From an uncultured Gammaproteobacteria bacterium (GTDB lineage: Bacteria; Pseudomonadota; Gammaproteobacteria; CAMYKB01), in contig CAMYKB010000004.1 of the NCBI GenBank assembly GCA_947258875.1, positions 4,179-38,323 on the forward strand: a stretch of DNA of 34,145 bases. The letters are read 5' to 3'. The position numbers and the translations under genes are program-made. Each line of letters starts with the position of its first letter. The stretch's first letter is position 1. This document shows, in pieces, positions 4,934 through 16,121 of this stretch. The notes under the pieces were generated by a model that saw only the letters and a program-made list of their open reading frames with translations, did not search any database and was not told the DNA's origin.

Positions 4934-6187
4934 TCATGCTGCTTCGTCTGCCAGCCGTTGTTTTAGCTTTCTGGAAATCTCGAGATAGATCACGGCGGCA
5001 AAGGCAGCAAATAACCCGAGAACCAGGCCTGCCAGCAGAAACAACTTCTTGTTGGTGATGTCCTGGATGGAGCGCGACGGTCCGGCCAAAATCCGTGTAG
5101 GGACGATACCTTCAATCTGCGCCTTGATTTGCGCGATGGATTGCTCCTGCTTTGCAATATTAATATCGCGCTCGTATTTAAGTTTGGTGTCTTTGGTATC
5201 AAGATTGGCCAGTTTATCTGAGGCGATGATGATATCGGTACCCAGTTTTTGCTCACGGGTGACCAGCTCGACATTAATCTTTTCGATTTCAGTGGTTCTC
5301 TGGTTGTTAAGGCGTAAGCGTTCTCCATCAAGCAGCATGAGTGTCATGGCGGATGAGGCTTCGCCAGTCCTTTTAACGGCTTGTTCGCGCTGCTTGTCGA
5401 GCCGTTGCGTCAGTTCCTCGATTTCTTTCAGACGCGATTCCGCTAGCTGGTTCTGCTTTTTCAATAATGATTTTTGAAATTCCAGGTTCTTGATCTCAAG
5501 GCCGAAAGATTTCTTTTCCTGCTGGATATCTTTTAGATCTGATTTGGCTTTTTCAATATTAATATTGGTTTTTTGTAGTTCGAGATTGAACAGGTCATCG
5601 TTTTTCAGTTCCAATAATTTTACTTTTGCCTCATAAAGCCCTGCCTCGAGTTTTGATTTTTCGATATTGATGCGTTGCCGATGATCAGTGAGCAATTGGT
5701 TCGCAACCTGTTGTTGTAATCCGGTTACCAGCTCTTCTTTGTCTTGAATGGCTGCACTGCTGAGGACAATGATATTACTCTTTTTGGGGCTGCTCACTTT
5801 TATAAGATCAGTAGAGATGTCGTCATTGGTTGTTGCGGCGTCGTGCAATACCGTGGGGACGTAGCCTTGTGTCAGTTTGGCGACAACGGCATCTGCGGGT
5901 TCGAGCAGCTCGTTATTGGATAGCAGTCCTAGTTCAAAACGTGTTGTATAATTGTATTTTGATGATATTAACAATGCGGCCAACAGGCTCAGCAGCACCG
6001 GCACCACGAACGCAATCAGCATAACCTTTTTGTGTTTGACGAACACCACCAACAGATCCAGTAGGTCGATTTCATCCTCCATGGCATAATCCGGGATGGT
6101 GTTGATACTGTCTGGGCCTGATGAGCGACGCTGGCTCTCTTCAGTGCTACGCTTGATATGTTCGATATCGGGTTTACTGGCTGACAT
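4934..6187 (-). CDS. Wzz/FepE/Etk N-terminal domain protein (polysaccharide chain-length regulator-like)
   Basis: This 417-residue protein has the polysaccharide co-polymerase plan: a cytoplasmic N-terminus, TM1 at about 54-75, a long charged periplasmic coiled coil (about 150-340, rich in E/K/Q), and a C-terminal TM near 390-412 (LFLLAGLVLGLFAAFAAVIY) ending in a short basic tail. An EIDLLDLLVVFVKHKK motif precedes TM1, as in Wzz proteins. Wzz proteins set O-antigen or exopolysaccharide chain length with a Wzy polymerase; no wzy, wzx or glycosyltransferase is nearby, so the target polymer is unknown. There is no C-terminal tyrosine-kinase domain. I chose ATG 6187, preceded by AAGGA, over an in-frame ATG 66 bases upstream. 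It is probably transcribed with the YbeL-like gene. Confidence 0.82.
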   Translation of the reverse strand: MSASKPDIEHIKRSTEESQRRSSGPDSINTIPDYAMEDEIDLLDLLVVFVKHKKVMLIAFVVPVLLSLLAALLISSKYNYTTRFELGLLSNNELLEPADAVVAKLTQGYVPTVLHDAATTNDDISTDLIKVSSPKKSNIIVLSSAAIQDKEELVTGLQQQVANQLLTDHRQRINIEKSKLEAGLYEAKVKLLELKNDDLFNLELQKTNINIEKAKSDLKDIQQEKKSFGLEIKNLEFQKSLLKKQNQLAESRLKEIEELTQRLDKQREQAVKRTGEASSAMTLMLLDGERLRLNNQRTTEIEKINVELVTREQKLGTDIIIASDKLANLDTKDTKLKYERDINIAKQEQSIAQIKAQIEGIVPTRILAGPSRSIQDITNKKLFLLAGLVLGLFAAFAAVIYLEISRKLKQRLADEAA

Positions 6188-6327
6188 TCTGGGTCCTTGG
6201 GTAACTGAAATTATTCTATCCTGAGCCGAAGCGTACAGCCTGATCCTGGGCAACCCGGTAGCTGTAGTACAGATTGTAACCGAAGAGTCCTTCCCCTATA
6301 AGTCTATAGGCCCATTTTATTGATCTG

Positions 6328-10489: not shown

Positions 10490-12895
10490 TTACGGTAGTT
10501 TGTTCTTGATATTGTTTATTACAGAACTGAGCGCGCTATCAAAACGATTGTTGTCATTGAGAAGTTTGCTGCGGCCCTCATTGTAATCGTCGACAAAGCA
10601 TTCGATTTCAATTTCAAGTATACCGCGCCCAGTACGGTCGACAAACAGAAGTTGTCCGGTGTCTTCTAGAATTGCTGAAAGTTTGAGACGTCTGCGTGCG
10701 CGTCCCTCACCCTGGTAGATTTCAAACCACGAATTGGGGCGAACTTCTTCGGGGATACTATTTATTAAATCATCCAATTCGATTTCGGCTTTGCTTATCA
10801 TTTCAGAGACATCATTTGCCGATTTTTCGATCAGGACGTCTTGAATTTCTTCTGCGGATGCTGCCTCGTCATCGATGGAGTTGTCGGTAGAATCATCTTG
10901 CTCTTTTTCTTCGGTATCCGTAAACAGTGCTACGACTTTGTTGTCTGCAATACTGTTAGAGGCAGGTTCATCTTCCTGCGTTGATGCAGCGGCACTCTCA
11001 TCAGGAATTTCTATTGTAGCAGCCAGAGCAACTTGTTGTTGTAGTTCCCAGTCCATGCGCAATTTCTCGGTGCGCAGTTCGTACCAGTTGACAATTTCTT
11101 CAAACAAAAATTGGTGTTCTGGGTGTGATGGAATCGTCTTTTCTAATTTTTGACGTATGTCTTCAAAGAACGTGGCGTCGCTAGATGTAAGGCGATTAAT
11201 TTGCTCGAAGTTAGTATAGGATTGGGCATTTTCAATAAGCTGTTTGACTGTCTCTACAGCTGCCTGCCATTCTTTTGATTTGCCGCCCTGTTCCAGGTAC
11301 ACCAACCCCATATAGTATGCCCAGCATTTTGTTGTAAAGCGCTGCAATATGTCGGGTACTCGAGTGCCACGCATTTGGTGTTTGAGCGTACTGATTACAG
11401 TACGTTTTGCTGCGGAACGTTTGGCGCTGATTTGTGCCTGATGCCTGATCTTGGTTTCCAGTTCACGCGCTTTTCTGGTGAACTCCTCATGGATCGGTTC
11501 GATTAATTTCAGTGCGGTAACGAAAGTGTCGGTTTCAGTTTCAAAATCGTTAACGATGAGCTTGGTGGCGGCTTTGAGCGATGTAAAATCCGTATCCTTT
11601 ATTGTCCGGTTCGAGATACCAATATTTGCCATCTGGTTGAGCAGCTGGCGAGCCGGATGTGCAGAATCCTGGAAAAATGCGAAATCAATCAATGCCAGCT
11701 TGATGATCGGTAATTGCAGTCTTGCAAGCAGGCCTTTGACTTCATTGGATAGCGTGTCATCTCCCAGCATAGTGTTAAAAGTCTGGGTAACGAAATCTAT
11801 GACCTTCTTTTCGTTTTCAATCACCCCTGTGGCGACAGTGCTACCCGCTTCATAAAGTGCGCATGTTGCCGCGGATATGATTTCTTCGGTATTCAGGGGC
11901 GTGTCACTGTTCGCCTCGGCATGCTGTACCACGGTGAGCGCCTGGATAAGCTGAGAGCGTTGATGCTGTGTGCTATTGGTGTCGCCAGTCGGGAATTCCA
12001 CATGCAGCAGGTTTTGCAGTTCTTCACGATCTATACTGTAGTGGCGGTAAGGAATCTTGCTGATATCATGATGGTGGTGTAATTCAATATCTCTTTCGTG
12101 ATTGTTTTGCTCCTGGGCTAAGCGTAGCTCGGCTTCTCGAGCCCAGGCCTCGATTTCCACCGGTGCAAAAAACTCACCCGTGCTCATACTATCTATTTCT
12201 TTTGCGGTGGGGGGGCTGTATTCCGGCTCAAGATCTTCCTCCGTCATCGGTTCGCTGATGAATTGACCGGGAAAGTTGTCATCAGGAGTTGTGTCACCAT
12301 CAGTAATGATGTGATTGGCTTGCCGGTACAACTCTTTAAGTTTGCTAAACAGCTTTTCGTTAAAGAGTTGATGCAATATATATTTTCCTTCATCACTGAT
12401 AGGCAATGATTCAAGGCACACCTTGTAGGGTAAATATATCGAGCGTGGATCCATGCAATGCGGATTTAACGATCCGGCGGGCAATTGTGTGCCGAGATGG
12501 CGGAGTTGCGCGTGCAGGAGTTTGAGAGAATTTTTGTAGCGCTGTTCTGCTGTGTTTATAGACTGTTCGAAATGGTGAGCCAAAGGATCATTGGCAGTAT
12601 TGCTGCCATCTGTTGTGTGCGATAGTGTGGCGGTTTCGAAGTTTGCGCCAACCTCGTCGAGATACTCCGCGGCAACAGATTCACGCAACGCATAAAATGC
12701 TGCCAATGTGTCGTAATGTTTGCCAAGGTCGATACGGGTGCAACTTGCCGGGTTTCCAGCAATTGCTTCGATCTCGCGCAAACTGACGGCGAGGGTTTCA
12801 TAAAGCGCCGTTCGTAATCTGGCAACGATATGATGTATGTCCTGTTTCTGGTCCGATTTGGCGCTCTCGGACTTGCTGCTGAGAATCCTAAGCAT
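10490..12895 (-). CDS. DUF1631 family protein
   Basis: This is an 801-residue cytoplasmic protein with no signal peptide or membrane segment. I recognise the DUF1631 layout: a helical N-terminal region with LRTALYETLAVSLREIEAI near residue 30, a long helical middle, an acidic low-complexity stretch (about 640-710, rich in E, D, S and A), and a conserved C-terminus with RRLKLSAILEDTGQLLFVDR and a final FDSALSSVINNI. The family's function is unknown. The gene opens divergently from holA, 218 bases away. It is positioned with the reductase as a minus-strand block inside a plus-strand core operon. The ATG lacks a strong ribosome-binding site. Confidence 0.82.
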   Translation of the reverse strand: MLRILSSKSESAKSDQKQDIHHIVARLRTALYETLAVSLREIEAIAGNPASCTRIDLGKHYDTLAAFYALRESVAAEYLDEVGANFETATLSHTTDGSNTANDPLAHHFEQSINTAEQRYKNSLKLLHAQLRHLGTQLPAGSLNPHCMDPRSIYLPYKVCLESLPISDEGKYILHQLFNEKLFSKLKELYRQANHIITDGDTTPDDNFPGQFISEPMTEEDLEPEYSPPTAKEIDSMSTGEFFAPVEIEAWAREAELRLAQEQNNHERDIELHHHHDISKIPYRHYSIDREELQNLLHVEFPTGDTNSTQHQRSQLIQALTVVQHAEANSDTPLNTEEIISAATCALYEAGSTVATGVIENEKKVIDFVTQTFNTMLGDDTLSNEVKGLLARLQLPIIKLALIDFAFFQDSAHPARQLLNQMANIGISNRTIKDTDFTSLKAATKLIVNDFETETDTFVTALKLIEPIHEEFTRKARELETKIRHQAQISAKRSAAKRTVISTLKHQMRGTRVPDILQRFTTKCWAYYMGLVYLEQGGKSKEWQAAVETVKQLIENAQSYTNFEQINRLTSSDATFFEDIRQKLEKTIPSHPEHQFLFEEIVNWYELRTEKLRMDWELQQQVALAATIEIPDESAAASTQEDEPASNSIADNKVVALFTDTEEKEQDDSTDNSIDDEAASAEEIQDVLIEKSANDVSEMISKAEIELDDLINSIPEEVRPNSWFEIYQGEGRARRRLKLSAILEDTGQLLFVDRTGRGILEIEIECFVDDYNEGRSKLLNDNNRFDSALSSVINNIKNKLP

Positions 12896-15498: not shown

Positions 15499-16121
15499 AT
15501 GATTGGAATCCTCGGGGGGACGTTCGACCCTGTTCATTTTGGGCACATTAAGCCTGCTCTTGATTTATTGCGAGTGTTGCCATTGCAGCAGATTCGTTTC
15601 ATTCCTTGTAACGTGCCGCCACATCGCCCCGCGCCGGTTGCAAGTGCCAGTCACCGCTGGCACATGGTGCAAATGGTGACTGCAAATCAACCAGGGTTTG
15701 CGGCCGACGATCGCGAGTTACGCCGTGCAGGCCCGTCCTACATGGTTGATACCTTGCAGGATTTGCGTGAGGAGCTCGGTGAAGAAAAATCTTTGTGCCT
15801 GATCATGGGTGCTGACGCCTTTGCCGGACTGACCGATTGGTATCGCTGGCAGGAGATTTTGCAATTGGCGCAATAACTGCGCGGCCAGGTTTCGAGTTGC
15901 CGCAGCAAGGTGAACTTGCTGACCTACTAAGAAACTGCCTGGTAGAGGATGTGGAAGTAGTAAAGAGTACGCCTGCGGGCCACATTCTGGCCTGTGAGGT
16001 CAGTCTGTTGGATATCTCTGCGACCGCGATACGTGCACAGATAGCAGGCGGCGGGCAACCGCATAATATGTTACCCGGAAATGTCTGGAATTATATAAAG
16101 AGGCACGGCCTCTACACCTGA
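15499..16121 (+). pseudogene. nadD: nicotinate-nucleotide adenylyltransferase, frameshifted near 15871
   Basis: Frame 1 (15499-15876) encodes the N-terminal half with GILGGTFDPVHFGHIKPA (HxGH nucleotidyltransferase motif) and stops at TAA 15874. The C-terminal half continues in the -1 frame with ITARPGFELPQQ, the ISATAIR motif (normally ISSTxIR) and WNYIKRHGLY, ending at 16121. The break falls in gcgcaataactgcg, after EILQLA. One added base would restore the frame. From family memory the LAH...RPG segment is about 7 bases short, so a 7-base deletion is also possible. No slippery heptamer is visible. The enzyme makes deamido-NAD and is usually essential, so an assembly error is as likely as a true pseudogene. 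rsfS follows 12 bases later. Confidence 0.9.

Follow-up and report, generated by a model that had tools for sequence, protein, structure and literature searches.

Nicotinate-nucleotide adenylyltransferase, NadD (NCBIfam NF000839/TIGR00482; structures 1k4k and 1yul), is known as an uninterrupted protein, and its gene is essential in Escherichia coli, where nadD can be removed only when another copy is supplied (PMC1249556). Genes that appear frameshifted in a single genome form a second point of reference: such singletons probably reflect indels or errors of sequencing (PMC3711429), and assemblies often contain spurious frameshifts, to an extent that varies with read coverage and chiefly where coverage is low (PMC11017572). 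The nadD gene described here lies within a 34,145-nucleotide stretch of a contig from an uncultured gammaproteobacterium (hereafter, the window). It shares with known NadD its sequence, its motifs, its neighborhood and its length outside one junction, but departs from it in carrying a 7-base deletion and an in-frame TAA in the deposited sequence. Compared with singleton frameshifts and spurious assembly pseudogenes (PMC3711429, PMC11017572), it is alike in showing one indel, no additional decay and an arrangement unshared by relatives, whereas it differs in that seven bases are lost and that 434 kb of the same genome hold no other break. No report of a frameshifted nadD was found among the top matches of a literature search.

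The gene begins with an ATG at 15499, and its zero frame encodes 125 residues ending in WQEILQLAQ, followed by a TAA at 15874–15876. This N-terminal part (15499–15876, forward strand) carries the nucleotide-binding motif GGTFDPxHxGH as GGTFDPVHFGH and matches NF000839 over profile positions 9–130 of 219 (E = 1e-52). The C-terminal part (15873–16121, forward strand) lies in the −1 frame relative to the start, is open from 15816 and intact to its TGA stop at 16119–16121, carries the ISxTxIR-type motif as ISATAIR, and matches profile positions 134–216 of 219 (E = 4.7e-16). The single continuous frame of about 210 residues seen in NadD is therefore interrupted by the TAA at 15874 and the change of frame. 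An initial annotation, made from the sequence alone, had proposed exactly this split, with two recognizable halves in different frames, the second in −1, and intact genes on either side; the flanking genes do read full-length in the neighborhood proA-nadD-rsfS-rlmH. It had also placed the TAA directly after EILQLA; the stop is real but the adjacency is not, since a Gln codon, CAA (15871–15873), intervenes. Because of the TAA and the frame change, set against 98 relatives that are all continuous, the locus as deposited is a broken copy of nadD; more specifically, it is best explained as an ordinary chromosomal nadD whose deposited sequence carries one deletion of 7 bases. Elsewhere in the window, a 439-residue open reading frame without an NCBIfam match (4937–6253, reverse strand) is flanked by leuS and the gene of a zinc-ribbon protein, and a DUF1631 protein of 801 residues, a family without known function (10493–12895, reverse strand), adjoins holA on the opposite strand.

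The size of the lesion was determined by aligning both halves with NadD from 98 relatives, collected through whole-genome and contig searches and none closer than the class. Across 38 alignment columns around the junction (15871–15882, forward strand), not one of the 98 relatives has a gap, and the window NadD falls two residues plus a base, or 7 bases, below their length; the earlier estimate of about 7 thus proved exact. In an AlphaFold model of one relative (L038; mean pLDDT 94), the junction corresponds to a strand at residues 125–130, which, reading from the known structure of such proteins, we take to be one of the core strands of this Rossmann-like fold. The model thereby places the missing piece within a core beta strand of NadD, at a helix-to-strand step. 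A perfect 5-bp inverted repeat, GCGCA-ATAAC-TGCGC (15868–15882, forward strand), spans the junction and was considered as a cause of the deletion, but we give it little weight: perfect 5-bp inverted repeats cover 7% of window positions and comparably GC-rich ones about 2%, too common to count.

We examined the need for NadD in the rest of this genome (3.01 Mb, 67 contigs, 98.5% complete). NadA and NadC, like salvage by nicotinate phosphoribosyltransferase, yield nicotinate mononucleotide, and NadD alone passes this product on to NadE. NadA, NadC, nicotinate phosphoribosyltransferase and NadE, the last with a glutaminase-type N-terminal domain, are all present and intact. Only four proteins in the genome belong to PF01467: the broken NadD, CoaD, HldE and RibF. 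A profile built from 30 NadD sequences, run at E values up to 10, returned both halves of the broken gene, a weakly matching piece of CoaD and nothing else, so that the search for a second NMN/NaMN adenylyltransferase gave only CoaD, HldE and RibF besides nadD itself. With no other such enzyme in the genome, and with NadA, NadC, nicotinate phosphoribosyltransferase and NadE all kept, cells of the living lineage must have a functional NadD.

No PnuC was found in the genome. On contig C6 (G000:C6:58343-59254; L122 and L123) we noted a membrane protein of 462 residues that is a distant relative of the NTP/NDP exchange transporters (TLC family), in a genome that holds full sets of NAD and nucleotide-cofactor genes. 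This protein scores 38.6 bits against a family cut-off of 387, far below that cut-off, and we do not count it as evidence of NAD uptake. These results bear on the proposal that NadD is genuinely lost and the loss fixed, with NAD coming from a different enzyme or from uptake, a reading that we consider quite unlikely. It can draw on the presence of the lesion in the sequence, on the distant transporter relative and on the small part of the genome that a 98.5% complete assembly leaves unseen; against this, the genome lacks both a second adenylyltransferase of the NadD kind and PnuC, the transporter match falls far short of its family cut-off, and all other NAD genes sought are kept beside a nadD that has not decayed. 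The initial annotation had raised an alternative route to NAD as an offset to the lesion and had suggested searching for a second nadD, a nadM or a salvage route. Salvage is indeed represented by nicotinate phosphoribosyltransferase, but this enzyme still needs NadD, no second adenylyltransferase was found, and the idea of an offsetting route is not supported.

The state of the broken gene constrains the age of the lesion. Mean identity to relatives is 36% for the C-terminal half versus 53% for the N-terminal half; judged by the relatives' own relation between N- and C-terminal identity, the C-terminal half has a residual of −0.015, which lies within the spread of intact relatives, a quarter of which fall lower. 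Among residues conserved at 90% or more in relatives, it retains 9 of 10 and the N-terminal half 27 of 31, the junction residue itself being one of the four losses. Outside the junction, no second lesion or further decay was found in nadD. Because the C-terminal half is not decaying, the lesion is either very young or absent from the living genome.

Two rival readings have both parts of the gene still in use. In the first, ribosomes might shift by −1 before or at the TAA, yielding a full-length NadD two residues short, and this would suit a gene that is needed, whose halves are both conserved and whose −1 frame is already open ahead of the TAA, giving an overlap of both frames that runs from 15816 to the stop. 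Within that overlap, however, no slippery heptamer of the form X XXY YYZ occurs between 15810 and 15877, and a stimulatory RNA structure is not evident (z = −0.45, with 67 of 200 shuffles folding at least as well). Nor is the split-frame arrangement conserved: all 98 relatives read NadD in one frame, and the class survey described below likewise revealed no conserved arrangement. Any −1 product would, moreover, lack two residues at a helix-to-strand step whose length does not vary. A frame break confined to one genome and absent from homologues is what an indel or sequencing error, rather than a programmed event, should produce (PMC3711429). Recoding, which the initial annotation had listed among its explanations, is for these reasons highly improbable.

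Still less probable is a two-piece enzyme, in which each half would be translated on its own and the two would then join into an active NadD. Each half does carry one conserved motif, but the break cuts a core strand, relatives do not show the arrangement, and no convincing start signal was seen for the C-terminal half, the only common in-frame start codons near the junction being TTGs, at 15837 and after the junction. That the deletion is fixed and the NaMN adenylyltransferase is made from a recoded or two-piece NadD we regard as very unlikely, and even fixed loss, recoding and a two-piece enzyme taken together remain improbable.

We then asked how often such breaks occur, both in the class and in this genome. 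Of 281 class members searched, 259 had a NadD match at E 0.001 among the matches listed; a few of these (E of 3e-4 to 9e-4) are too weak for a confident NadD, leaving roughly 255 NadD-bearing genomes. Re-examination covered 28 other genomes with two NadD matches, a design that single-match genomes having lost a half could escape, and identified at least one other frame-broken nadD, in G253 (1.0 Mb genome). There, nadD lies in two frames (L146; G253:C11:36400-37500), the second piece holding two TAA codons. In G016 the gene is split across contigs, and the remaining second matches either share an open frame with the first match or lie away from it, on another contig or at another place in the genome. 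Frame-broken nadD is thus rare and scattered in the class. Within the genome itself, a codon-usage scan of 434 kb of sampled sequence, in which 223 stops were testable for coding continuation in a different frame, identified nadD as the only real frame break. Two further candidates, L141:1508 and L143:19389, proved on reading to be ordinary neighboring genes, the latter presumably YebC-like and RuvC-like genes in succession, as recognized by sequence. The assembly is not generally poor or error-ridden, and some weight therefore remains for a genuine recent mutation.

Taken together, we favor, with a probability of roughly 0.8, a reading in which the living lineage carries an intact, ordinary nadD and the seven bases would be missing only from the deposited sequence, through an assembly or consensus error, or from a very recent or minority allele. 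On this reading, the population probably still contains an intact allele. Between its two forms, an assembly or consensus error has about an even chance of being correct, and a mutation of very recent origin or minority status in the sequenced DNA is possible at clearly lower odds. Two observations stand against this explanation: a 7-base loss is atypical of a homopolymer slip, and the 434 kb scan contains no other frame break.

Unless raw reads say otherwise, the nadD break is thus best seen as something ordinary rather than as working biology. It offers a caution, in that a single small indel is enough to give a NAD pathway with all its other steps the look of a defective one, which could wrongly be taken to mean that the organism depends on external NAD. 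Were the lesion instead fixed, it would suggest that an essential enzyme is made in an unusual manner, and a recoded or two-piece NadD, if true, would represent a new mode of expression for an essential enzyme of NAD synthesis.
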